Positions 11,866-59,159 of a DNA stretch of 64,000 nucleotides are shown here, in pieces (positions within the stretch are counted from its first letter, which is position 1; every line of letters starts with the position of its first letter). Origin of the DNA: Colwellia polaris (GTDB lineage Bacteria > Pseudomonadota > Gammaproteobacteria > Enterobacterales > Alteromonadaceae); contig NZ_NBOE01000002.1 in assembly GCF_002104515.1 (NCBI RefSeq), positions 434,001 through 498,000 of the forward strand. The letters run 5' to 3'. The translations under genes were made by a program, and so were the position numbers. The notes under the pieces were generated by a model. That model saw only the letters and a list, made by a program, of their open reading frames with translations. It did no database searches and was not told the origin of the DNA.

Positions 11866-11980
11866 GGTGACCCTTTTGGTCCCTCCGCAATGATACTCTG
11901 TGAACTCGGCCAGGTCCGGAAGGAAGCAACCGCAGCAGACGACTCATGTGCCGGAGTGTTGGCTATTAGGGTTGCCACCC
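11866..11980 (+). ncRNA. ffs: 4.5S RNA (SRP RNA)
   Basis: The conserved SRP core is present: GGTCCGGAAGGAAGCAACC in the apical region with the GNRA-type GGAA tetraloop, and the matching CAG...GTGCCGG side. The ends pair (GGTGACCC at 11866 with GGGTTGCCACC at 11969-11979), closing a hairpin of about 115 nt, the size of E. coli 4.5S RNA. It acts with Ffh in cotranslational targeting of membrane proteins. End positions are estimated from the terminal helix and could be off by a few bases. Confidence 0.95.
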
Positions 11981-16287: not shown

Positions 16288-17057
16288 AGAATGTTTTGCA
16301 TAGTAAATTTGCGGGTAACTATACCACAATGCAATCATGAATTTATCTAGATTTCTAACTCAAATTGAGAGTATTTTTCTGCGAAGCAAAGTTTATTTTT
16401 GTGTACTTCTGATTCGAAATTTAACAGCGTATAAAATATTTTTAGATAAATATTCACAAACAGTGTATTTAAATTAAACGGTGAAAGGCCCTAAAATAGG
16501 ATTGTGGGTGAGATAAAATCACTATTTATTGCCAAATTTGAGCTTGGTTACAAAATAAATGAAAATAAATATCAAAAACTGTTTCAATTTGTTTACGTAA
16601 GTTGTTTGTGTGTGTAAGTTATTGTTAATTAGGTTAAATGTTGTTTTTGTCGTTTTTTTTATAAATACCTGAAAAAACTATTTGTTTTTTTGTGCTCATT
16701 CAATAACCCATAAAACATAAAGACCCTATAAGCTGTTGTTTTAAATTCATTTATTTGTGTGTTTTTATTGGCGGTAATCGACTTTAAATACATCGAAGAT
16801 ATGATTTTTAATGAGAAATCGCTTATTTTGTGTACTTTGTTACTTGATTGTTAACATACGTTTTTTGACTGCCTTTTAATGCCATAAGTGAATTATGTAA
16901 ATAAAACGTAACTGTTTGTGTTGACCCATTAACAAGATTAAGTTTAATATCTTAGCTGAAAGATTTGGTTATTAACCGAATTAGTAATTCAACAACAAGA
17001 CAACATAGTCTTGAAATTAAACACTAGTATCACGAAAGTGGTCCAGGGAGTATATCA
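16288..17057. other. Long regulatory region upstream of the TonB-dependent receptor
   Basis: About 770 bp of very AT-rich DNA with no supportable gene. The best promoter is TTGACC at 16921-16926, an 18-bp spacer and TAATAT at 16945-16950, giving a leader of about 100 nt before the receptor ATG at 17058. A TTTACGTAA palindrome lies near 16593. No clear Fur box was found. Confidence 0.45.
16921..16950 (+). promoter_or_regulatory. Candidate promoter of the TonB-dependent receptor
   Basis: TTGACC, 18 bp, TAATAT. Both hexamers are close to the sigma-70 consensus and the element lies about 108 bp before the receptor start. Found by eye in AT-rich DNA, so chance matches are possible. Confidence 0.5.
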
Positions 17058-19903
17058 ATGTATCAAAGTATCAAAGTAACAAGCTTACTAAAGCTGTTCG
17101 TTTAGCTCTTGTAGCTGGCGCAACAACTACTGTTCTAGCTGCACCAAGTGCTATGGCATTCGCTGAAGAAGCTGCAGCAGAAGAAAAAGGTGTTGAACGT
17201 ATCCAGGTAACTGGTTCACGTATTCGTCGTTCAGAATTAACAGCTGTAACACCTATCATCGAAATTAGCGCTCAAGAATTCGCAATTTCAGGTAACCTTA
17301 ACATCGAGCAAAAACTTGCTGAGTTACCTTCTACATTGCCTTCATTTGGTCCTAGCTCAAACAACCCTGGTGACGGTACAGCAACAGTAGATTTACGTGG
17401 TTTAGGTACTTCACGTACGTTAGTTATGGTTAACGGTCGTCGTTGGGTTCCTTCAAACCAATCAGGCGTAGTTGATTTAAACACGATCCCAGCTTCTTTA
17501 ATCGAAAACGTTGAAATCATCACTGGTGGTGCTTCTGCGGTATACGGTTCAGATGCAATCGGTGGTGTTGTTAACTTTAAAATGAAAGATGATTTTGAAG
17601 GTGTTGAAATTTCAACGTTATACGATGTAACGACTGAAGGCGATGCTGAGAAATTTAACTTAGATTTAACCATGGGTGGCAACTTTGCTGATGACCGTGG
17701 TAACGCAGTACTTTACGTTGGTTATTCTAAGCGTGAATCTTTATTCCAAGGCGACCGTGACTTTGCAAGTGTTGCGTTAACTGAAGGCGATGGCGAGTTA
17801 GTTGCTGGTGGTTCTTCAGGCATTCCTGGTACTCGTGTATTTGGTGGTCCAACACTTATTTCTGGCCCAAATGCAGGTTCAAGCTTAGGTCGATTTAACC
17901 AAGACGGCTCAGGTAATACCTTTACTGGCGCTGACCGTTTTAACTATGCACCTGATAACTTTTTACAGTTACCACAAGAACGTTTAACAATGAACGCCTT
18001 CTCTCATTTCTACATTAATGATGAGACTCGTATTTACAGTGAACTTTCTTTCATTCGTAACGAAGTTCCACAAGAATTAGCGCCTACACCAGCATTTACA
18101 ACAATCGAAGTAAATCCTAATAGTGCATTCTTTGGTGCAGACGTTCAAGAAGCTATGTTAGCAAGTGGTGACTTAAATGCCGCTGGCAACTACGAAATGT
18201 TCGTAGGTCGCCGTATGGTAGAAAATGGTTCACGCCAATCTATCGATACACGTGATGCAATGCGTCTTTTAGTTGGTATTGATGGCTACATTAACGACGA
18301 TTGGTCTTACGATGTTTATTACAGTCGTTCACAAATGGATCAATCTAACCTGTTAAACAACGATGTTTCAGCTTCACGTTTTAAACAAGCACTTCTAACA
18401 AATGATGCTGCTACTGAATGTACAGATACTTCAGGTGGCTGTGTACCAATTAATATTTTTGGTGAAGGCAACATCTCTGACGCCGCAGTTAATTTTGTAA
18501 ACGTTGGTGCATCAAACGTTACTACACTTAAACAAGAAGTATTTATGGCTACAGTATCTGGTGCATTACCATTTACTTTTCCAGGTGCTGAAGAGTCTGC
18601 TGGTATCGTATTCGGTTACGAGAAGCGTCAAGACGAATCATCTTTCCGTCCAGATGAATTCTTAGCTGCAGGTGATGTATTAGGCTTTAATGCTGGTTTA
18701 CCAACTGTTGGTAAGTACAGTTCAAGTGAAATTTTCACTGAATTCTCTCTACCTCTTTTAAGTGGCAAAGAATTTGCTGAAGACTTGAGCTTTTGGGGTG
18801 CTGCACGTTATGCAGATTACTCAAACATTGGTGCAGTTTCATCATTCGCAGCAGCGTTGAACTGGGCGCCTACTGATTGGATTAGCACACGTATTGGTTT
18901 CCAATCAGCTGTACGTGCTCCAAATGTTGCTGAATTGTTCCAAGGTTCTGCAAATGGTTTCCCAGGTGCAAGTGATCCATGTTCAGTTGGTGGTTACCAA
19001 GCTGGCGTAACAAGTGATGCATTATGTATTTCTTCAGGCGTTGCAGCTGATCAAGTTGGTGTTTTCACACAAGCTAACTCACAAATTGAAGGTTCATTTG
19101 GTGGTAACTCAGAACTACAAGAAGAAAGTTCTGACACATTTACTGTTGGTATCGTTGTTCAACCTTTTGAAGGTTTAGATTTCACTATTGATTATTTCAG
19201 CATTGAAATTGAAGATGCTATTTCTTCATACGGTGTAAACAATACATTGAATGTTTGTTATAACATTGTAAAAGATGCAGGACATGAAACTTGTCAAAAT
19301 ATCACTCGTCGTGCAGATGGTAACGTTGATATCGTTCAATCATTGAATGCTAACATCGCATCAATTGAAACAGCTGGTGTTGATTTTAACATCACTTACA
19401 ACGCAGAACTTGATTTTGGTTTGTTTGATAGCGGCTCTGACTTAAATATTCAGTTCCGTTCAACTTTCCTAGAAAAGTCTGATTTTGTACCAATTGTTGG
19501 TTTACCAACTGAATACGAATGTGCTGGTTACTACGGTAATACATGTGGCGCGCCACAACCTGATTTCCAAGCAAACACTCGTGTTAACTGGACAAACGGT
19601 GACTTAACGTTATCTGCATTATTCCGTTACATTGGTTCAACTGAAGATGACCAGTTAATGGTTGATAATACTTTAAAGGCTAGTGACTTAGTTGTATCAG
19701 AAATTGACGCAGCGATTTACGTTGATTTAAGTGCTAGCTACTTAGTTAACGAAAATCTGAATGTTAACTTTGGTATTAAAAACGTATTTGATGAAGAGCC
19801 TACTGCTTTAGGTGATTCACAATCTCAAGCTAACACATTCCCAGAAACGTATGACGTTATTGGTCCACGTGTGTTCTTAAGTGCTTCTTACACGTTCAAT
19901 TAA
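17058..19903 (+). CDS. TonB-dependent receptor, reading frame broken near the start by an 8-bp duplication
   Basis: An outer-membrane TonB-dependent receptor. The plug follows EEKGVERIQVTGSRI and includes DLRGLGTSRTLVMVNGRR and VYGSDAIGGVVNFKM; the barrel ends with SASYTFN. The ATG at 17058 has a good ribosome binding site (AGGGAG, 17045-17050) but its frame stops after 15 codons. The receptor frame has no ATG, GTG or TTG upstream of 17153, which would leave no signal peptide. Removing one copy of the tandem TATCAAAG (17061-17076) joins that ATG to the receptor frame and restores a normal signal peptide starting MYQSNKLTKAVRLALVAG and ending near AMAFA. As read the gene is off, or it is switched by copy number, or this is a sequencing artefact. 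It stands before a block of 2OG oxygenases and the TonB2 operon. The substrate is unknown. Confidence 0.9.
17061..17076 (+). repeat. Tandem 8-bp duplication TATCAAAG in the receptor start region
   Basis: Two perfect copies, 17061-17068 and 17069-17076, immediately after the ATG at 17058. One copy gives an intact 948-codon-class receptor frame with a signal peptide; two copies shift the frame and end translation at a TAG after 15 codons. Direct repeats of this size arise and collapse by replication slippage. Confidence 0.9.
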
Positions 19904-20066: not shown

Positions 20067-21902
20067 ATGCAAAATGTTAGCTGTTCAGATGTAACCCTTA
20101 AACTTCAACATCTTTTTTCTTTATTCCAAAAAGGTCAAACCAAACGTGTACTTCAAGAGGTAGAAGTATTATTAACTTCTGTTACCGATAATGCTGATCT
20201 ATTGCATTTGGCGGCTATGGCTTATAAGGCTGAGGGTAACTTTGAAAAAGCAATAAACTATTTCACTAAATCATTAGCGATTAATGATAACCAGCCGCAA
20301 GTTCATAACAATATTGCGAATACTTATAAACAAAAATTGAGCTGGGCTTTGGCCGAAGTTCATTACAACAAGGCAATTAAACTCCAGCCTCAATATATTG
20401 ATGCAATTAAGAATCTTGGTTTATTGTATTTAAATAATCAAAGATATAAAGAAGCAAAAAACAGTTTTCTACAAGTTATAAAACTATCAAAAAGTGATGC
20501 TTCAGCATACACATCATTAGGTAATATATGTAAAGCAGAACAAAACTTTCCTGCTGCTATTAGTTACTATAAACAAGCGCTGAATATTAACCCTCGCTAT
20601 GTAAATGCGTTACATAATTTAGGTATAGCCTATCGTATGACTGGTAATTTCTCTGAGGCTATTAAGTGTTTTAATCAAGCAAAAGCTATTGCGCCCAATA
20701 TAGCTGAAATTGACTTTAATGAAGCTAATACTCAGTTTGACTTAGGTAATTATCTACAAGCAGAGCAGGCTTATTGGAATGCGTTACGAAAAGCACCGGA
20801 TAACTGTGAAATACATGAAACATTAAATGAGTTTTACTGGCAAACCGATAAAAAAAGTGAATTTGGAAAAAGTTTTACTCAAGCGATCAATCATTTGCCA
20901 AATAACTTACCACTTCGTCATTCATATGCAGAAAGTCTGTTTGCTTCAGGAAATAAAGCACAAGCAAGTAAGGTAATAGATGAAGCGCTAAAGCTAGATA
21001 AAACACCAGAACTTCTTCATTTAAAGGGGAAGTTAGTTGCCTCAAAAGGAGAACTTAAACTTGCAATATCGCTAATAGAGTCCTCTTTGAATAATCAATA
21101 CAAGCTCTCTAATGCTCTAGATTTAATTGAGCTATTAATTATTGATATTGATTACAGTAAAGCACTTCATCATATAAGCTATGCTGAAAAAATAGAGCCT
21201 AATAACCAGTTGCTTATCGCTTATAAAAGTATATGTTGGAGACTTACTAGCGATCATAGATACGAATGGTTAATTGATTATCAAACGCATATACGGACCT
21301 ATGAAATTCCCGTTCCTAAAGGTTACAGCTCAAGAGAGATGTTTCTAGATGAATTAGGACCAGCGTTATTGTCAATGCATCAAACGCAGCATGCGCCATT
21401 AAAGCAAACCTTAAAATTTGGCACGCAGACTCCGGGCAGACTTTTTTATCAGCCGGTTAAACCCATTGTTGACTTAAAAAATGCATTTGAAGAAGTTGCT
21501 TTAGAATATATATCTTCATTGCCTGATGATGACAGTCACCCACTTTTATCAAGGAAAACCAAGCAAATTAATTTTGCTGGTTCTTGGTCTGTAAAGCTAA
21601 AGCCTAATGGCTATCATGTAAACCATGTACACCCTAAAGGCTGGATAAGTTCATCATTCTATGTAAGTGTGCCAGAGTTCTCGAATTTCACTCAATCAAA
21701 TGATAACGCAGGTGCGATAAAGTTTGGAGAGAGTTCGATGAATCTAAAAGAACGAGAAAAAATAGCTAGAACGGTGACTCCAAAGAATGGCTTAGTCGCT
21801 TTATTCCCTTCATATGTTTGGCATGGAACGATTCCATTCAATGGGCCTAACGACATAGTGAGATTGACTGCACCATGTGATATAACACCGGGAGAGCGCT
21901 AA
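20067..21902 (+). CDS. TPR protein with C-terminal putative 2OG-Fe(II) oxygenase domain
   Basis: A 611-aa protein. Residues about 10-400 are tetratricopeptide repeats (for example the YKEAKNSFLQVIKL and AAISYYKQALNINPRY units). The C-terminal part (about 440-611) matches the 2OG-FeII_Oxy_5 type: His520 and His522 in NHVHPKGWISSSFYVSVP, His586 in VWHGTIPF and Arg599 in VRLTAP as the probable iron and 2-oxoglutarate ligands. It could hydroxylate a protein or peptide presented by the TPR region. It is the first gene of a run with the methyltransferase (1-bp gap) and the AspH-like gene (4-bp overlap). No signal peptide. Confidence 0.82.
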   Translation: MQNVSCSDVTLKLQHLFSLFQKGQTKRVLQEVEVLLTSVTDNADLLHLAAMAYKAEGNFEKAINYFTKSLAINDNQPQVHNNIANTYKQKLSWALAEVHYNKAIKLQPQYIDAIKNLGLLYLNNQRYKEAKNSFLQVIKLSKSDASAYTSLGNICKAEQNFPAAISYYKQALNINPRYVNALHNLGIAYRMTGNFSEAIKCFNQAKAIAPNIAEIDFNEANTQFDLGNYLQAEQAYWNALRKAPDNCEIHETLNEFYWQTDKKSEFGKSFTQAINHLPNNLPLRHSYAESLFASGNKAQASKVIDEALKLDKTPELLHLKGKLVASKGELKLAISLIESSLNNQYKLSNALDLIELLIIDIDYSKALHHISYAEKIEPNNQLLIAYKSICWRLTSDHRYEWLIDYQTHIRTYEIPVPKGYSSREMFLDELGPALLSMHQTQHAPLKQTLKFGTQTPGRLFYQPVKPIVDLKNAFEEVALEYISSLPDDDSHPLLSRKTKQINFAGSWSVKLKPNGYHVNHVHPKGWISSSFYVSVPEFSNFTQSNDNAGAIKFGESSMNLKEREKIARTVTPKNGLVALFPSYVWHGTIPFNGPNDIVRLTAPCDITPGER

Positions 21903-21903
21903 T

Positions 21904-22815
21904 ATGCAAGATACAGATGCATGGTCATTATATTGGCAGAACAACCATCAAGAAAGTTGCATTACACCGTGCAATGAAACTGACAGCACTATTCTTATTG
22001 ATATTTGGCAAAACTTTGCATTAGATCTAAAACCAAATTTTGAGTTACTAGATTTAGCAACTGGCAATGGCAGTGTTGCAAGGCGCTTAATTAGTTTTAA
22101 TAAACAGCTTAAAGTAACAGCAGTAGACCAAGCAAGTATAGACCCAACAAAATATGTTGATGACAACATCTTGCTAGATAACATTCAATTTGTTGCGGAT
22201 GTAAACATTGAAAAACTGCCATTTGAGCAAAACATATTTGATGCAGTTACTAGCCAATTTGGTTTAGAGTATTCAAACCTGAGTTTATCAATACCAGAGC
22301 TAGTAAGAGTATTGAAGCAAGCAGGGCGATTCTTATTTATTATGCATCATGCAGATAGCGAAGTTGTAGGTCCTGCAAAATTAAAAGTTAAAGAATTTAA
22401 CTTAATTTTTGAAAGCAATTTACTACATGATTTTGAATTGTTTTTATCAAATAATTTAAGCTTAGAAGAATTAAATAAAACAGGTGAAAAGCTGCTAAAT
22501 AACCCTGAGTTAATTAAAAGCAACGCAATCACAGGCCAAATATTTTCTGCCATTGATAAGCTTATAGTACTTAAAAACCAGAATAAAAAACAAAATGCTG
22601 AAGTCTTACTTAATACACTGCAAAATATGACAAACAGAATTGTCGCTGAAAACTCTAGGCTAGAACAATTAATTTCATCATCTTTAACTCAAATAGAAAT
22701 AGAAGCGCTGTGCAATTCACTCAAAAATGAGGGGGCAAAGGCGACATTTAAATCAATTACACTAAGCGATAATCAAAGTGTTATTGGTTGGGAAATTAAA
22801 GGATATAAGCTATGA
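21904..22815 (+). CDS. Class I SAM-dependent methyltransferase
   Basis: A 303-aa protein. Motif I LLDLATGNGSVARRL (about residues 47-61), an acidic residue after the second strand (TAVDQAS) and a DAVTSQFGLEY motif with PELVRVLKQAGRFLF identify a Methyltransf_11-type fold. The C-terminal 120 residues are helical and lysine-rich without a recognisable domain. It is translationally coupled to the next gene (4-bp overlap), so it probably acts with the flanking oxygenase-like proteins. Acceptor unknown. Confidence 0.82.
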   Translation: MQDTDAWSLYWQNNHQESCITPCNETDSTILIDIWQNFALDLKPNFELLDLATGNGSVARRLISFNKQLKVTAVDQASIDPTKYVDDNILLDNIQFVADVNIEKLPFEQNIFDAVTSQFGLEYSNLSLSIPELVRVLKQAGRFLFIMHHADSEVVGPAKLKVKEFNLIFESNLLHDFELFLSNNLSLEELNKTGEKLLNNPELIKSNAITGQIFSAIDKLIVLKNQNKKQNAEVLLNTLQNMTNRIVAENSRLEQLISSSLTQIEIEALCNSLKNEGAKATFKSITLSDNQSVIGWEIKGYKL

Positions 22816-23984
22816 GTACTGAAGTAAGCTTATTAAAACAAGTAGATCGAGCGTTTAGCTGTCAGAAAAATCAACAGGGTTTAGAGCTGCTTAGAGCGTA
22901 TATTGTTAATAATGCTCAAGACACCGAACAACTTTATCGTTTAGCCGTTATTGAAGAACAAATAGGTCTTAAAGAGAATGCGGCAAAGGCTTATTTGCAA
23001 TGTATAAACAGTAATAAGCAAGATATGAAAGCTTATTTATACGGAGGTTACTTTTTCCAACAATGCGGGGAAATGGAACGAGCTTTAGCGCTTTACTCTC
23101 TCGGCGAAAATATCGATGCAAGATTAACTGTGTTACACCAAAATCAGAATGTGTCTTATGAAACAAGGCTTAGGTCGCATTCTGCTAATATTGCACTGAG
23201 AAATCACTTCACAACACTTCACGCCAAAAGTTTAGAGAATTTTGATAACAGCGAAAGAATAGTTAATGCTATATGGCCACAAACACATAATAGTGCAATA
23301 AACTACTTAACGGCTAATCAACACCCACATCTCTTCTATATACCAGAGTTAACAGCTAAGCCTATTCATAGTAGTCATAGTGTTGACTGGTGCAAATTAT
23401 TAGAACAAAGCTTTGATGAACTTACTAGCGAGTTCTCTGAGTTATTGAGTTTAATTGAACGTAACGGTGTGCCTTATTTGGATGACAGCTATAAGGCAAA
23501 AGGCTTTGAGTCGTTAGCGGGTTCAAAAAACTGGACTGCACTCAATATCTTCAAAGATGGTAAAGCTAATGATAATTTGTTGTCTTTAATGCCAAAGACA
23601 GCCGATGTTTTAAATAAACTCCCTTTGTATAAGGTTGATGAACAGCCATTTGAAGTGTTTTTTTCGTTATTAAAGGCAGGGCAACATATTCAGCCACATT
23701 TTGGGCAATCTAACCATAGTTTAACAGTACATTTACCTATTATTGTTCCCAAAGGAGGGTACTTAACGGTAGCGGGCGAAAAACTAGCTTGGCAAAAGGG
23801 TAAAGTTATTATATTCGATGACTCATTTATTCATGAAGCAATTAACCCTTCTGATGAAGATCGTGTGGTGCTTATTTTCTCTATATGGCACCCAGATTTG
23901 TCAGAGGCAGAACAAAAAGCTATTTTAGCGAGTTTTCAAGCTCGCCGTGAATGGCTTGACAGTCGTGATCAGCATTTGTCTTGA
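22812..23984 (+). CDS. TPR protein with aspartyl/asparaginyl beta-hydroxylase-like domain
   Basis: A 390-aa protein: helical TPR-like N-terminus (residues about 1-110) and a C-terminal Asp/Asn beta-hydroxylase (AspH, PF05118) domain. The iron ligands are visible as His296 in IQPHFGQSNHSL and His341 in FDDSFIHEAIN, with Arg351 for 2-oxoglutarate; the AspH family lacks the usual acidic iron ligand, consistent with HFG here. Its 3' end overlaps the convergent sulfotransferase gene by 16 bp. Likely a cytoplasmic protein or peptide hydroxylase. Confidence 0.82.
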   Translation: MSTEVSLLKQVDRAFSCQKNQQGLELLRAYIVNNAQDTEQLYRLAVIEEQIGLKENAAKAYLQCINSNKQDMKAYLYGGYFFQQCGEMERALALYSLGENIDARLTVLHQNQNVSYETRLRSHSANIALRNHFTTLHAKSLENFDNSERIVNAIWPQTHNSAINYLTANQHPHLFYIPELTAKPIHSSHSVDWCKLLEQSFDELTSEFSELLSLIERNGVPYLDDSYKAKGFESLAGSKNWTALNIFKDGKANDNLLSLMPKTADVLNKLPLYKVDEQPFEVFFSLLKAGQHIQPHFGQSNHSLTVHLPIIVPKGGYLTVAGEKLAWQKGKVIIFDDSFIHEAINPSDEDRVVLIFSIWHPDLSEAEQKAILASFQARREWLDSRDQHLS

Positions 23985-25837
23985 GATAACTCATGATAAA
24001 ATTGACTAAATATTGCTAACTCTTGCTGGTAATGACGAGAAAAGTTTTGCTTATTAGTGTTAATTGGCTGCCTAACTTGTAATTCACTGAAAGTGAAACT
24101 GTTAACATGCTCTTTGTGAAAATTTAGATAATCGTCGTTCCAGTCTAAATTACAAAATTTAAATATTAGCTGCGCTTCTTCTTGAGGGGCGTTTGTTAGC
24201 TGATTGTAATTTACATCAATAACTTGTCCTGGAAAGCTATCTCGCCAAAAGTCCATTAATTTGTTTGCTTGGAATATAGCATGAGCAATGTTTTTTAAAT
24301 TAGCGGCATAGTTATGGTGTGGAGCAAAAGGTTGCGAGAAAATTGATAAAGCAAGATCTTCAGGTGCTCTTCTCATTTGAATAACTTTAACTTGCTCGAA
24401 AATAGAAAGTATAGCCCCAACATAACGATAGTTATGCGGCATTTTATCGACAATGATATCTGCGTTTAATGCTGTTTTAGCGCGGTATGAACTGAGAATA
24501 TCTTGTTTGTTTTTGCTGAAGAACTCTTGCCAATTAATCGCTGTATTATTTTTCTGAGCATTAACCTTATTTTCTATGAATAGTGCCAATGCTTCATTTT
24601 CGCCACTACTTTCAATACTCGGGTGCTGAGATAAAATTCGGTCCATCAGTGTTGTACCAGATCTCGGCATGCCAACAATGAAAATATTGCTAGGAGGTAA
24701 TTGCGTTATATCTTTGGAGTAGTTAGTAGAGCTTACTTGAGAAAGAAATTTATGATGGTTATTAGCAGCATCATGGTCATAAGATAAATTACTCTTACTA
24801 ATAATATCTTCTTGTAAAGTGTTTGCTTTAGTAAAACAACGAAAAGCAAGAGGATATTGAGCAAGCTTTTCATAGGCCTTTGCTAAAATAAATAAGTTTT
24901 GCTGGTTTTGGTAATTATTCTCAATTGAGCTCTCTAACAAATGTGAGAGAGAGGCTACTGTTTTTTCATGTTGAGCGCCTATTTCTTGTTTAGCTCCCCA
25001 TGCAATATAGCTTTCAGGGTTTAATGCTAATGCGTTGTCTGCAGCAGCTATTGCAAGTTCTGTTTTATTTTCAAGTCGACAGATGCGTATTTCAATTTCA
25101 TAGCGAGTCAAACTATTATCACTTAACGCTATAGCTTTGTTTAATTGTAGTCGCGCTTGCTTAACATCTCTGGCAAGTAAATATAAATCAGCGAACTTTA
25201 ATAAATTAAGGCTAATAACGGGTGTATGTTCAAGAAACTTTTTAAAAGCACTAATCGCATTATCGTACTGTCTTAATTTTGCGTAACAAATAGATAAACT
25301 TTTTTGAATTACAGACTGTTGATTAGATAACGTATGACTGAGCCTTAACCATATAGCTATAGCTGCAGCCCAGTTTTCACTTTGCATGTTAGCTTGTGCA
25401 ATAATCATATCGGTTTGTGGACTACTCTTTACTGAAGTATTATTTTGATACTTTGTTGCTATCTCTAGTGATAATTTAGGCTGATTAATTTTAAGCGCTA
25501 AATGTGCAAATGAATTTATAATTTGTCTATCGTTTGGTAGCATCTCTTTAATATTATTAATTAATTCATACGCTGCTTCAGCTTTATTTGCTGAGTTTAA
25601 ACACATGGCAAAGTTCAGTGTAATGTCAACGGCATTTGGCTCTTTGGCTAAAGCTTTAGTAAATAAAGAGATTGCACGTTCATATTGTTGTGTCTGAGTA
25701 TATAATGTAGCTAAACCATAGGTTGCGTCATTACTGTCATACTGACTAATCGCTTTTAAATATGCTTGTTCAGCAACTTCATAGTTTTTTTGTTGATGGG
25801 CTAATTCAGCTATGTTTAACGATTCATTTAAAGTCAT
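23969..25837 (-). CDS. TPR-sulfotransferase fusion protein
   Basis: About 622 aa. The N-terminal two thirds is TPR (for example YEVAEQAYLKAISQ and YERAISLFTKALAKEPN); the C-terminal third (from about residue 380) is a PAPS-dependent sulfotransferase with the 5'-phosphosulfate loop IVGMPRSGTTLMDRILSQHP and the later GQVIDVNYNQL segment. I prefer the ATG at 25837 to an in-frame TTG at 25861, since the protein then starts MTLNESLNIAELA like other TPR starts. It is opposite in strand to its neighbours and overlaps the AspH-like gene by 16 bp at the 3' ends. Such fusions often sit near TonB-dependent receptors; the acceptor is unknown. Confidence 0.85.
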   Translation of the reverse strand: MTLNESLNIAELAHQQKNYEVAEQAYLKAISQYDSNDATYGLATLYTQTQQYERAISLFTKALAKEPNAVDITLNFAMCLNSANKAEAAYELINNIKEMLPNDRQIINSFAHLALKINQPKLSLEIATKYQNNTSVKSSPQTDMIIAQANMQSENWAAAIAIWLRLSHTLSNQQSVIQKSLSICYAKLRQYDNAISAFKKFLEHTPVISLNLLKFADLYLLARDVKQARLQLNKAIALSDNSLTRYEIEIRICRLENKTELAIAAADNALALNPESYIAWGAKQEIGAQHEKTVASLSHLLESSIENNYQNQQNLFILAKAYEKLAQYPLAFRCFTKANTLQEDIISKSNLSYDHDAANNHHKFLSQVSSTNYSKDITQLPPSNIFIVGMPRSGTTLMDRILSQHPSIESSGENEALALFIENKVNAQKNNTAINWQEFFSKNKQDILSSYRAKTALNADIIVDKMPHNYRYVGAILSIFEQVKVIQMRRAPEDLALSIFSQPFAPHHNYAANLKNIAHAIFQANKLMDFWRDSFPGQVIDVNYNQLTNAPQEEAQLIFKFCNLDWNDDYLNFHKEHVNSFTFSELQVRQPINTNKQNFSRHYQQELAIFSQFYHELSQDKC

Positions 25838-25968
25838 AAAAGTAATGCTTAGTAGGTGCAAGTCACAAGTGTGACGAACACATAGTGGTTATTTAATATA
25901 TGCATGTGATAATACAGCAAAATTATACGCTAATAAAAGTGTTTAGCAGTGAAACCTTGAGGTGAAAG

Positions 25969-34531: not shown

Positions 34532-36847
34532 ATGAGCTATCAGGTTTTAGCAAGAAAATGGCGTCCAAAATCCTTTAGTGAGCTTATGGGACAAGAACAT
34601 ATCGTAACTGTTCTTGTTAACGCATTGACTCAGCAAAGGCTTCATCACGCGTACTTATTTACTGGTACCCGTGGTGTTGGTAAAACAACTATCGCCAGAA
34701 TTTTTGCTAAAAGCTTAAATTGCGATACAGGTATTACTGCAACACCTTGTGGTGTTTGTGATGCTTGTGTTGATATTGATCAGGGTAAATTTGTTGATTT
34801 ACTCGAGATTGATGCGGCTTCACGTACAAAAGTAGATGACACCCGTGAAATTCTAGACAACGTACAATATGCCCCTACAAGAGGGCGCTATAAAGTCTAC
34901 TTAATTGATGAAGTTCACATGCTTTCTAAGAGCAGTTTTAATGCCTTATTAAAGACATTAGAAGAACCGCCTGAACATGTTAAATTTATTTTAGCGACTA
35001 CTGATCCTCAAAAGTTACCTGTTACTGTGCTTTCACGTTGTTTACAGTTCCATTTAAAAGCACTGTCAATTAAACAAATCAGCGATAAAACAACGGAAAT
35101 ATTAACTAAAGAAAGTGTAACCTTCGATCTTGAAGCTATTGCTCTGCTTGCTAAAGCTGCACGTGGCAGTATGCGAGATTGTTTGAGCTTAACAGACCAA
35201 TGTATTGCCCAAGGTAACGGTAATATTACTCGGCACGACGTACAACAAATGTTGGGTGGTGTTGATCGTGATTGGGTATTTAAAATTCTTATCGCGTTGC
35301 TGAAACAAGATGCAGAAGCGCTAATGAAATTATCGCTATCAATCGCATCATATGCCCCCAGTTATAGTCGTTTATCGGCTGAATTAATTCAGTTGTTACA
35401 TCAAGTTGCAATGACACAAGTGGTAGAATCTAATTTTAGCTTACCTGCAGAACATCAGCAGATGTTGATGCGATTTTGCCAATTAATGTCTCCTGAAGAT
35501 GTACAGCTTTATTATCAAATAGTACTAACCGCTCGAAAAGACTTACCCTATGCTGATGATGAGCAAGCAGCGTTTGATATGATGCTATTGCGTCTACTTG
35601 CCTTTAAACCAGTGATTAATAACCAAGAGTTACCCACTGCTGAAAAAAGTAAAGTAGAGGCTGCTAAAATTCAGCAGGCTGCAGATAAGCAACTTGATGA
35701 ATTGACTTTTGAACAACCTTCAACTGCATCAGCTTCAGCTGTTTCATCCTCGGCTGCTGAGATAACTAACACACTTGAGCATGCTTCAGTTGAAGAAACT
35801 TCGCTATTAAAAAAGCAAGAAGATAACATGCCTGCGGCAGAGGCAGAGGCAGAGGCAGAGGCAGAGGCAGAAAAGCTTTCTCCTTTGGTAGAAGAACATA
35901 ACAGTAGCAACACTTCTACTCTTGACGTTATTTCAGTAGCTAGTCAAACAGATTATGTTCAGGAAGAACAAGATCAAGAGATAAACATCGAGAATAATGA
36001 TGAATTGATTAGTCAGAAAAATGAAGCATTAAACCAAGAGATGTCAGCAATAGAACAACAAGCCAGCACTCTAATTGACAATAACTCTGATGAAGAGCTT
36101 ACCAGCCATGTTGATTCATCTTATGGTACTCTAGAAAACTTGCCTGCTGATACACAAGAGACTGATAGTATTAGCCAGCAAGAGTTAAGTAATGAAAAAC
36201 AAGGTTTTGCATCTAACGTAACGGCAGCTATTCACACACGAAACATGCTCAGAAGTCGAAAAAAATCGATGGAGGAGGGCGGAAAAAAGCCTAATGGCGC
36301 AGGCATGCGTCTAACAGCTGATGCCGTTAATACATCTGGGGAAATACCTGACGTACCCACTCAAAGTAAAGTGGAAAGCACGCCGAATGTTCCTGATTTA
36401 GCAACTTTACCTGAACAGCCTTATACTGAAGATATTATTAATCCAGCAACGATTAAATTAGCTAATCAAGTTGATAAGTGGGCACACATGATCGACAGTA
36501 TGTCGTTAATTGCTCGTTTAAGGCAATTAGCTATTCATGCAACAATTGATGAAAGTTCTACTGATGATCTATTGATACTGCAATTAGATAAATCGATCAG
36601 GCATTTAAATAGTGATGCGGCCCATAAACAATTAGAAGTGCATATATCTGAATACTTGCAACGTAAAGTTACTGTTGAATTAAATATTGTAGAGAAAACC
36701 GTTGCTGATCCTTATCAAATTCAATCAGATATCAATGCAAAGCGCTATGAATATGCAAAACAAGTATTAGCCGAAGATGAAATTGTTATCGCATTAAAGC
36801 AAGAATTTCAAGCTGAACTTGATGAAGAAACTGTTGTAGCGCGTTAA
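34532..36847 (+). CDS. dnaX: DNA polymerase III tau/gamma subunit
   Basis: A 771-aa clamp-loader ATPase. Domain I has Walker A GTRGVGKTT (about residue 45), a four-Cys zinc site (C64, then CGVCDAC) and Walker B LIDEVHML; domains II-III run to about residue 370. A long acidic linker (370-600), including a run of Ala-Glu repeats, precedes the C-terminal tau domain (about 630-771) that contacts polymerase alpha. At 644-771 residues compared with 643 in E. coli, the excess is all in the linker. A slippery heptamer at 36283 should also produce the short gamma form. Confidence 0.96.
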   Translation: MSYQVLARKWRPKSFSELMGQEHIVTVLVNALTQQRLHHAYLFTGTRGVGKTTIARIFAKSLNCDTGITATPCGVCDACVDIDQGKFVDLLEIDAASRTKVDDTREILDNVQYAPTRGRYKVYLIDEVHMLSKSSFNALLKTLEEPPEHVKFILATTDPQKLPVTVLSRCLQFHLKALSIKQISDKTTEILTKESVTFDLEAIALLAKAARGSMRDCLSLTDQCIAQGNGNITRHDVQQMLGGVDRDWVFKILIALLKQDAEALMKLSLSIASYAPSYSRLSAELIQLLHQVAMTQVVESNFSLPAEHQQMLMRFCQLMSPEDVQLYYQIVLTARKDLPYADDEQAAFDMMLLRLLAFKPVINNQELPTAEKSKVEAAKIQQAADKQLDELTFEQPSTASASAVSSSAAEITNTLEHASVEETSLLKKQEDNMPAAEAEAEAEAEAEKLSPLVEEHNSSNTSTLDVISVASQTDYVQEEQDQEINIENNDELISQKNEALNQEMSAIEQQASTLIDNNSDEELTSHVDSSYGTLENLPADTQETDSISQQELSNEKQGFASNVTAAIHTRNMLRSRKKSMEEGGKKPNGAGMRLTADAVNTSGEIPDVPTQSKVESTPNVPDLATLPEQPYTEDIINPATIKLANQVDKWAHMIDSMSLIARLRQLAIHATIDESSTDDLLILQLDKSIRHLNSDAAHKQLEVHISEYLQRKVTVELNIVEKTVADPYQIQSDINAKRYEYAKQVLAEDEIVIALKQEFQAELDEETVVAR
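35837..35872 (+). repeat. Hexanucleotide repeat (GCAGAG) in the dnaX linker
   Basis: Five perfect GCAGAG copies plus GCAGAA, encoding alternating Ala-Glu. Being a multiple of three, copy-number change would alter linker length without a frameshift. Confidence 0.9.
36283..36289 (+). promoter_or_regulatory. dnaX programmed -1 frameshift site (gamma subunit)
   Basis: The heptamer A AAA AAG is in the correct register (codons 584-586 GGA AAA AAG). A -1 slip reads GCC and then stops at TAA (36292-36294), giving a product of about 587 aa. A purine-rich Shine-Dalgarno-like GGAGGAGGG lies at 36271-36279, and GGCAT/ATGCC could pair downstream. E. coli dnaX has the same heptamer, an upstream Shine-Dalgarno-like element, and a stop one codon after the slip. 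A second slippery run, A AAA AAA, is at 36259-36265 and leads to the same stop. Confidence 0.75.
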
Positions 36848-43222: not shown

Positions 43223-44137
43223 ATGGTGAAGAACAAAAATTACGTGTCATTTAACGCAAAGTATTGGAAGCACTCGAAAGCCCTAGCTCTGTTAGGGCAT
43301 TCAGAAAGATTATTCCAAAAGAATAAAAATGTCATATCACCAGAATTATCTAAGTTAAATTTTGGCTCGAAGAATTTATCCCAATCCTATTTAGATATTC
43401 ATCAGCAACGACAAGACATTAAAAAAGCTAGAGTAGATGCCAATACTTTGATTGAAGGAGTCTTAGCTTTTTCAAATGATAGATTTGTTGAACTAGAGCA
43501 AAAATTATCAGAAGAAGAATTAAGAGAACAATTCAATAAACAAATAATTGTTTTTGCCAAAAAAGTAGAAAAAAAATATAAATTAAAGTTCATTTCTTAT
43601 GTTCAGCATAGAGATGAAGGTCATACAGATGAAAATGGAAAATTGAAGATTAATCATCATGCACACCTATTTTTCTACAATTATGACTTTGAAACAAAAA
43701 CGTCACCACTAAGAACTATGAAGCGTAAAGATTGGTCAGTGATTCAAGATTTAGCTGGGATTTCCTTTAGAACCCTGAACTTTATAAGAGGAAAAAATAA
43801 AAAGAAAACAGGTAAAGAACATCTAGAAAAAGATGACTTTATTAAACAAAAACATAATGCAGCGTCTGATATAACATCGAACATTTCGAATACTTTTAAA
43901 AAGCTTGTTAAATCGGTATTCACACTTAATAAAAACGACTACAAACAAGGAATAAAGAAGTTTAGATATTATCTTCAAGAACTCAAAAATATTGATGAAC
44001 AAGCTTTTGAAGAGGTTTCATCGTTAACAGAGAAAATAATTTCAAAACCAAAACCAAAACCAAAGACAAGGAGTGTCAACAATGCAAAACCACAATATAA
44101 ACCCAAATTTCAACCCAGCGACAGAAAAGCAACTTGA
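43223..44137 (+). CDS. Divergent MobV/Mob_Pre-type relaxase
   Basis: A 304-aa protein. Near the N-terminus LLGHSERLFQKNKNVISPEL resembles the MobV motif I of MobM (HNERxF...N-I-P-S-LN), which holds the catalytic His. The metal-binding HUH motif appears as HRDEGH...NHHAHLFFYN (about residues 131-155), compared with HxDExxPHxH in MobM, with an insertion between the halves. The C-terminus is lysine/proline-rich. Relaxases nick oriT and lead DNA transfer. At 304 aa it is smaller than MobM (about 490 aa), with the extra C-terminal region missing. A replication initiator of HUH type is the alternative. Confidence 0.65.
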   Translation: MVKNKNYVSFNAKYWKHSKALALLGHSERLFQKNKNVISPELSKLNFGSKNLSQSYLDIHQQRQDIKKARVDANTLIEGVLAFSNDRFVELEQKLSEEELREQFNKQIIVFAKKVEKKYKLKFISYVQHRDEGHTDENGKLKINHHAHLFFYNYDFETKTSPLRTMKRKDWSVIQDLAGISFRTLNFIRGKNKKKTGKEHLEKDDFIKQKHNAASDITSNISNTFKKLVKSVFTLNKNDYKQGIKKFRYYLQELKNIDEQAFEEVSSLTEKIISKPKPKPKTRSVNNAKPQYKPKFQPSDRKAT

Positions 44138-44543
44138 TCATGTTGAACAGATTTCAAATGACTTACTATCATGTGAACAGAGAATACAGGTAGGTAGGCT
44201 CATTAATTCATGTTCTGGGCTGTTTAAATTTATAGTAAGTCATGTACCACCACTATCTGTATTTGAAGCAATAGATTTATACTTTACGAAGTTTCAAAAA
44301 AAGAAATCACCAATACGAAGAAAGCAACAATTTGGTGATTATGAAAATCAAATGTTTTTTGTACTCATGTACATGTTTCTAGGATCTACTTTTAAAGATG
44401 CAGTAAATGAAATTGAAGAACTAAAAGAAACGTATACTGATGGAAAAATTGAAAGTTTTACGTCATTTGATTATCACTATCATAATAATGAAAATTTTAG
44501 AAGTTTGGTAAATAAGGATAAAAAATCTAAATTTAAAAAATAA
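44082..44543 (+). CDS. Unknown island protein (153 aa) overlapping the relaxase gene
   Basis: Starts at ATG 44082, 8 bp after AAGGAG (44068-44073), and overlaps the end of the relaxase gene by 56 bp in another frame. This makes translational coupling likely. The product is helical and charged with a Tyr/Phe-rich middle (YENQMFFVLMYMFLGSTF) and a lysine-rich end. It may be a relaxase accessory protein. No family recognised. Confidence 0.65.
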   Translation: MQNHNINPNFNPATEKQLDHVEQISNDLLSCEQRIQVGRLINSCSGLFKFIVSHVPPLSVFEAIDLYFTKFQKKKSPIRRKQQFGDYENQMFFVLMYMFLGSTFKDAVNEIEELKETYTDGKIESFTSFDYHYHNNENFRSLVNKDKKSKFKK

Positions 44544-44570
44544 AAATAAAAATAAAAATAAAAATAAAAA
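44541..44570 (+). repeat. (TAAAAA)5 microsatellite at the stop codon of the 153-aa gene
   Basis: Five TAAAAA units, the first of which provides the stop codon TAA (44541-44543). A T and then GGGGTGG follow. It cannot change the reading frame of the gene. Confidence 0.85.
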
Positions 44571-45234
44571 TGGGGTGGTTGGAATTTACACCCTTTTCTT
44601 TTTGTTGTGTTAGTCTTTTTTAATAATTGCCAGCAAACCAAGCTCCTACCATATTAATAGGTATAACTGGCTAACTGGCAGAACTATATGCTTGCCGTGG
44701 CTACTCTTGTTTTGTGTCTAACAATTTCGCAGAGAACTTTTCAACACCCATATACACATGATGCCCTTCGTACCCAGTTCTCATAGTTTTATAAGTTATA
44801 TACTTTTGCCCTGCCTGTTTTTTATCGCGTGGTTGCTGGTTGGTTTGCCCGTACTCCACAAATTTTGTATATAACCCACATTACTATCCTTTAGCGGGCT
44901 TGACCTTACGATTTAACCTTGTAGGCCATTGGCTAACTTCCTCCACAACATCTTTAATCCAAGGGAAGTTAGGCTTTATTATTTTTTAGTATCAAATTCA
45001 ATTATTAGGTATCAGATTAAAACCAACATTGATCAAAATAAATGTTACCTAATATAGTTTTACCACATTTTTTAAAACGATCAATAGAGAATGATATTTT
45101 TTTATTTAATAAAAACATATCATTTGAATCAATGATTAATGTATACATTTGTGGCAATATTATACGATAAAATATTTTATATTAGTTATGGACACATTAT
45201 TAAGCAGATAATGTAGATGAGGGAACATGTATAT
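44571..45234. other. Gene-poor island stretch with possible decayed ORFs on the minus strand
   Basis: About 660 bp before the KAP gene. On the minus strand two fragments share one frame: 44884-44990 (about 32 codons, KPNFPWIKDVVEEVSQWP) and 44701-44859 (52 codons from GTG, with YKTMRTGYEGHHVYMGVEKF), separated by TAG TAA. The amino acid composition looks like real protein, so this is probably a broken gene. I do not recognise it. The remainder is AT-rich. Confidence 0.4.
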
Positions 45235-58670: not shown

Positions 58671-59159
58671 ATGAAATTAATTAAAAAATCATCAATAGCA
58701 GCTTTATTAGGTATATTTGCGTTAACTGTAGCAGCAACGATGCCAGCTAAAGCTGAAACAAACCCATTTGCAGTGCAAGATGTAATGACTATTGTTTCTG
58801 CCGATGACCACGAAAAAGGTAAATGTGGTGAAGGCAAATGTGGCGAAAGCAAAATGAAAGACGCAGCCAAAGGTAAGTGCGGCGAAGGCAAATGTGGCGA
58901 AAGCAAAATGAAAGGCGCAGCCAAAGGTAAGTGTGGCGAAGGCAAATGTGGCGAAAGCAAAATGAAAGACGCAGCCAAAGGTAAGTGCGGTGAAGGTAAA
59001 TGTGGCGAAAGTAAAATGAAAGCTAAAGCCAAAGGTAAATGTGGCGAAGGCAAATGTGGCGAAAGTAAAATGAAAGCTAAAGCCAAAGGTAAGTGCGGCG
59101 AAGGTAAATGCGGTGAAGGTAAAGCTAAAGGCGCAAAAGAAGGCAAGTGTGGCGAATAA
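58671..59159 (+). CDS. HvfA-like RiPP metallophore precursor, repeat-rich exported protein
   Basis: A 162-aa protein. The signal peptide is MKLIKKSSIAALLGIFALTV to about PAKA. From residue 50 it has six 18-aa repeats of the form GKCGEGKCGESKMKDAAK and a final GKCGE, giving 13 Cys and seven EGKCG motifs. EGKCG is the motif modified to oxazolone/thioamide pairs in HvfA (Haemophilus), by an MNIO enzyme HvfB with HvfC, making a copper-binding product. No hvfB (DUF692), hvfC or DoxX-type gene lies next to this gene. An AAGGAA ribosome binding site precedes the ATG. A simple low-complexity metal-binding protein is the alternative. Confidence 0.8.
   Translation: MKLIKKSSIAALLGIFALTVAATMPAKAETNPFAVQDVMTIVSADDHEKGKCGEGKCGESKMKDAAKGKCGEGKCGESKMKGAAKGKCGEGKCGESKMKDAAKGKCGEGKCGESKMKAKAKGKCGEGKCGESKMKAKAKGKCGEGKCGEGKAKGAKEGKCGE
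58818..59141 (+). repeat. Six 54-bp tandem coding repeats
   Basis: Six units of 54 bp encoding the 18-aa GKCGEGKCGESKMK-type repeat; unit 6 is the most diverged (GKCGEGKCGEGKAKGAKE). The DNA is highly similar from unit to unit. A partial copy (GKCGE) follows. Confidence 0.92.

Follow-up and report, generated by a model that had tools for sequence, protein, structure and literature searches.

Loci that vary through simple sequence repeats mostly carry shorter units in longer tracts than the repeat considered here. In pneumococcal capsule genes, Waite et al. reportedly described switching by tandem duplication in 2001 and 2003, cap3A presumably being the name of the gene at the type 3 locus. 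The behaviour of these capsule genes appears to be the closest yet described to that of a TonB-dependent receptor gene of Colwellia polaris that lies in the 64-kb stretch of DNA analysed here (the window). There the type 3 locus, cap8E and tts undergo spontaneous tandem-duplication switching, and an insertion of nine bp or less is expected to revert at about 1e-5 at most (PMC4022640). As in those genes, a short direct duplication breaks an open reading frame, reversion is expected and no long tract is needed, whereas the Colwellia gene encodes a surface receptor and not a capsule enzyme, carries its duplication at the start codon and is at most a putative switch. Simple-sequence-repeat phase variation in Haemophilus influenzae (PMC2651432) and Neisseria (PMC5084427) offers a second comparison, in which the repeat unit is likewise indivisible by three and lies among the opening codons of a gene for a surface protein. 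The H. influenzae repeats described there are tetranucleotides (PMC2651432); unlike the loci of either organism, the Colwellia gene has just a pair of perfect octamers, and its sister receptors show nothing similar. A further likeness is to the E. coli K96 capsule gene kpsC, in which rare slipped-strand frameshifts are proposed as a slow revertible switch of a surface structure (PMC13410964). The frameshift is spontaneous in both, but the homopolymer tract and the reversion demonstrated by passage belong to kpsC.

The receptor body comprises 916 residues and matches the Pfam models Plug and TonB_dep_Rec_b-barrel above their curated cut-offs, as TonB-dependent receptors do; the allele departs from these receptors in that no start codon shares the frame of its signal peptide. 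All matches to NCBIfam models fell below cut-off, and no substrate assignment came from them. Directly after the ATG at 17058-17060, the octamer TATCAAAG occurs twice in immediate succession, and the exact period-8 match extends over 19 bp from 17060 as GTATCAAA GTATCAAA GTA. This is an 8-bp frame-changing unit of the kind found at simple-sequence-repeat loci, set in an array that Tandem Repeats Finder resolves into 3.8 degenerate octamer units; a long multi-copy tract is not present. Fifteen sense codons on, the frame opened by the ATG meets a TAG (17103-17105). From 17021 to 19903 the receptor frame stays open, and its first ATG, GTG or TTG is the ATG at 17153, which falls beyond the hydrophobic signal stretch. 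Because no such codon occurs earlier, the ORF finder places the receptor start there (MAFAEEAAAEE...). The duplication puts the start codon out of frame with the receptor, and a signal peptide in frame with the start codon, as judged by hydropathy only, is absent in this allele and present in the orthologues. The features of the region are collected in Table 1.

Table 1. Features at and around the receptor start, in window coordinates.
Feature	Position	Strand	Basis
Promoter-like site TTGACC, 18-nt spacer, TAATAT	16921..16950	+	consensus scan; both hexamers identical in four aligned orthologues
Leader hairpin 1, CAAGAC / GTCTTG, 6-nt loop	16996..17013	+	RNA fold, leader alignment
Leader hairpin 2, ATCAC / GTGGT, GAAA loop, just before ribosome binding site	17029..17042	+	RNA fold, leader alignment
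Shine-Dalgarno-like AGGGAG	17045..17050	+	7-nt gap to ATG; invariant in 17 aligned leaders
Degenerate octamer array TATCAATG TATCAAAG TATCAAAG TAACAA	17053..17082	+	Tandem Repeats Finder, repeat-family search (D1)
Truncated ORF, 15 codons and stop, now opened by the normal start codon	17058..17105	+	frame analysis
Two perfect tandem TATCAAAG copies (17061-17068 and 17069-17076)	17061..17076	+	sequence; single octamer in 12 close orthologues
Signal-peptide coding stretch, receptor frame, head without start codon	17069..17164 (end approximate)	+	orthologue alignment
Intact TonB-dependent receptor body (Plug and beta-barrel)	17153..19903	+	ORF, domain scan
TPR / 2OG-Fe(II) oxygenase gene, conserved neighbour	20067..21902	+	domain scan, locus comparison
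Methyltransferase gene, neighbour in G007 and G008, no match in G003	21904..22815	+	domain scan, locus comparison
Aspartyl/asparaginyl beta-hydroxylase gene, conserved neighbour	22812..23984	+	domain scan, locus comparison
TPR / sulfotransferase gene, conserved neighbour	23969..25861	-	domain scan, locus comparison

Comparison with relatives identifies the two-copy form as the exception. Within the genus, a receptor of 88% identity (E<=1e-100) is present in three of the 16 other genomes (G003, G007 and G008), the remaining matches at this threshold being only 34-37% identical. When the window is aligned with these three orthologues the 8-bp insertion is the sole gap between the ribosome binding site and the aligned coding end, and the other gaps of the four-sequence alignment sit upstream of the ribosome binding site. 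A scan of 395 family genomes, in which two candidates per genome were scored, returned a homologue at E<=1e-200 in 29, the window's own included, and in all 28 others an ATG stands in frame at least 78 nt ahead of the point where the match begins (query residue 1 to 8). Every one of the 12 close orthologues, at 74-88% identity, begins ATG TAT CAA with one octamer, TATCAAAG in seven and TATCAAAA in five; the same holds for loci L019-L022 (Colwellia DT_19 and three Thalassotalea), which probably coincide in part with genomes of the family scan. An order-wide pattern scan of little power matched seven of 295 genomes, six without the duplication and the window alone with it; its pattern ended in TAACAAR, which orthologues with TAATAAG do not match, and G003, G007 and G008 lay outside its sample. 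On the evidence of these alignments, the 8-bp duplication is a derived lesion. The earlier note had described a tandem octamer following an ATG with a good ribosome binding site, a two-copy frame that ends after 15 codons, and a receptor frame without a start codon that includes the signal peptide, all of which the present analysis confirms. Its expectation that a one-copy form would yield a normal N-terminus is borne out by G003, G007 and G008, which carry the predicted MYQSNKLTKAVRLALVAG in frame. Between species, the octamer count is two in the window against one in every close orthologue, and the family-wide second start that it had named as potentially refuting was not found among the 28 homologues, none of which needs one.

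The bare repeat pattern is not beyond chance frequency: the window holds two perfect period-8 duplications, against a mean of 1.6 expected under a first-order Markov model (60 runs, maximum 5). Chance as the whole explanation was nevertheless rejected, since the single copy in the orthologues reveals the duplication as a real event. We also examined the starts of all 36 Plug-domain genes of the window's genome, taking as a signal segment a 10-residue stretch of mean hydropathy at least 1.6 after an in-frame start, a measure of hydropathy only. By this measure 34 of the 36 pass, some of them only by way of GTG or TTG (among them L058, L078 and L085), and L060 is borderline at 1.39 and by eye resembles a signal peptide. 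The window's receptor, at -0.04, is alone among the 36 without a hydrophobic segment after an in-frame start; L085 was rejected as a second such receptor, an upstream TTG start supplying its signal peptide. None of the other 35 genes has a perfect tandem repeat of at least 7 bp within -40 to +90 of an in-frame start. A set of repeat-switched receptors was accordingly rejected, and similar repeats at other surface genes were not found among these Plug-domain genes, the only ones examined. A close paralogue as a stand-in for the receptor was likewise rejected, the next best relative in the genome being 30% identical.

The coding sequence beyond the lesion appears to have been maintained. By the Nei-Gojobori method, dN/dS is 0.098-0.132 when the window is compared with the three orthologues and 0.099-0.130 among the orthologues themselves. 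Codon changes unique to the window's lineage number 52 synonymous and 6 nonsynonymous, compared with 195 and 35 for the other three together (Fisher p 0.41); as a rough bound, the count being limited to codons at which the other three agree, the unconstrained share of the window's branch is at most 1.7-2.7% (taking neutral N:S as 2 to 3, against an opportunity of 3.2 in the gene itself). No second lesion was found in the 916 codons, and the relaxed constraint and further lesions of a decayed pseudogene are not seen. Since the body is intact and constrained as in the orthologues, the lesion is either very recent, perhaps having arisen in culture, or repeatedly reversed.

The receptor gene sits in a largely conserved setting. 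The order TauE, receptor, TPR-2OG oxygenase, Asp-hydroxylase is kept in G003, G007 and G008, and the TPR-sulfotransferase gene comes next wherever the compared stretches extend far enough, there being cut by the stretch ends. The promoter consensus scan found five sites in the region against 3.7 expected from shuffles, which makes the promoter-like site weak when taken alone. Ahead of the ribosome binding site, window 16990-17060, lies a two-hairpin leader that is common to the orthologues and to other receptor-like genes. Its single-sequence fold is unremarkable (z -1.42, with 18 of 200 shuffles as good; for L004, z -1.93 and 6 of 200), both folds including the start of the coding region. Across 17 aligned sequences (15 distinct), 92.1% of cells are paired, against at most 31.5% in slid controls; for hairpin 1 the figure is 86.7%, and five of the 15 distinct leaders have a both-side change (GC to AU) at one pair; for hairpin 2 it is 98.7%, and two leaders have both-side changes at one pair. 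Letter shuffles reach the level of leader pairing in 2 of 500 cases and the covariation score in 1 of 500; they reach the observed two pairs with both-side changes in 152 of 500, and the number of further pair types in 494 of 500.

A covariance model of the leader that includes the start codon finds matches at 26 places in 23 of 59 family genomes, three of which (G000, which is the window's own, G042 and G045) supplied sequences for building it. At 24 of these places the model's end leads into an ORF start. In 23 of them the frame stays open for as far as the locus was retrieved (about 500 codons), and in the window the start opens the 15-codon frame. By eye, 20 of the 23 ORFs begin like TonB-dependent receptors, with an M(Y/F)..(N/S).K N-terminus; the other three ORFs (L106, L116, L120) are of another type, and L114 and L121 are weak matches without such an ORF. 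No Rfam family matched the leader at its gathering cut-off, and three sub-threshold matches were set aside, the highest-scoring being STnc130 at 20.1 bits against a cut-off of 55. The modest structural evidence is consistent with the leader being a candidate cis-regulatory RNA. A leader of this kind may have been described earlier; a paper on Shewanella leaders mentions receptor genes at two points, in connection with TPP and cobalamin riboswitches (PMC2659441).

Elsewhere in the window, positions 11874-11971 match the Bacterial small SRP RNA (Rfam RF00169, 70.7 bits). Six perfect GGCAGA units at 35836-35871 encode Ala-Glu repeats within the ORF at 34532-36847, which we take to be DnaX-like; as the units are hexamers, length variation would leave the frame unshifted. 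Six perfect AAAAAT units at 44536-44571 span the very end of the ORF at 44073-44543 and the sequence just beyond, and changes in copy number might alter its C-terminus. A 162-aa ORF at 58671-59159, its N-terminus signal-like by eye, contains many GKCGEGKCGE repeats in 54-bp tandem units and is reminiscent of EGKCG-type bufferin peptides (PMC12452194). It has no Pfam match, and a scan of three ORFs downstream of it turned up no DUF692-type enzyme.

We consider it likely that a recent chance duplication at the start of the chromosomal receptor gene produced a largely null but potentially revertible allele. The probable origin of the duplication is slippage during replication from one GTA triplet to another 8 bp away, within an older near-octamer repeat. 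In G003, G007 and G008 a GTA stands on either side of the octamer, which gives a 3-bp microhomology at the 8-bp spacing that slippage needs, and G003 and G007, with their single copy, already have the near-repeat TATCAATG-TATCAAAG. This microhomology is a simpler account than a transposon footprint, in which the octamers would be an 8-bp target-site duplication left by an element now gone. Ribosomes would still initiate at the normal ATG, make a 15-residue peptide and stop, and with this premature stop there would be little or no receptor with a signal peptide; we infer a loss of that protein from the arrangement of the frames. Because the remainder of the gene is intact, the allele would be revertible in principle, and by analogy with the capsule genes loss of one copy could restore the frame at low frequency. 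What is observed is what an off allele would look like: an exact short duplication, an ORF otherwise intact and a single copy in relatives. In sum, the duplication is probably real, recent, inactivating and potentially revertible, seen in one genome and ordinary in kind.

The earlier note had raised two possibilities, that the receptor is phase variable or that it is newly inactivated, and the intact, constrained coding sequence fits the latter. A true contingency locus, in which octamer copy number shifts so frequently that the receptor is turned on and off in the population, under selection for switching, seems unlikely. A unit that is not a multiple of three at the very start of a surface-protein gene, the near-octamer array around the start codon, and an intact, constrained receptor body would all suit it, but the perfect copies number just two, each of the 12 close orthologues has a single octamer, comparable repeats are missing from the 35 sister receptors, and the order-wide scan, for what little power it has, encountered the duplication nowhere else. 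The note's phase variation is therefore not supported, and the duplication is weak evidence for it; a literature search returned no paper with both Colwellia and phase variation in the title. Also doubtful is a related idea that the near-octamer straddling the start, TATCAATG-TATCAAAG-TAACAAG in the window, G003 and G007, is a slippage hot spot and that the sequenced clone was caught in the off state of a low-frequency switch, kept because having the receptor can at times be a disadvantage, for instance by giving phages an entry point. A decayed gene already on its way to loss would account for a start codon disconnected by a lesion; with constraint as in the orthologues, no further lesion and long, open neighbouring ORFs, we disfavour this reading as highly improbable.

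Two other alternatives concern whether the lesion exists and whether it matters. That the duplication is an assembly or sequencing artefact, the real genome being one-copy, is quite unlikely. The orthologues are single-copy and the 4.43-Mb genome is a draft of 28 contigs, but it is rated 100% complete and 0.21% contaminated, and a 19-bp repeat fits inside any ordinary read; assemblers rarely duplicate repeats shorter than a read. Non-standard ATC starts and minus-1 slips are rare, and A_AAG is a slip-prone tetranucleotide. An ATC at 17054 lies in the receptor frame beside the Shine-Dalgarno sequence, and an A_AAG (of CTA-AAG) precedes the stop of the 15-codon frame, so that a low-level leak by either route is possible. 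That the receptor is still made in this way, the duplication serving to tune its expression, we regard as very unlikely. The frame is open back to 17021, yet that stretch has no ATG, GTG or TTG, the ATC is spaced only 3 nt from the Shine-Dalgarno sequence, and the homologues use an ATG start.

In practice, mechanical ORF calling misplaces the start at 17153, and the receptor is listed without a signal peptide. If the duplication is real in the living strain, a conserved marine receptor would have here an allele that is clean, datable and largely null. It would also allow a test of how frequently duplications of the minimal, two-copy kind serve environmental bacteria as reversible switches.
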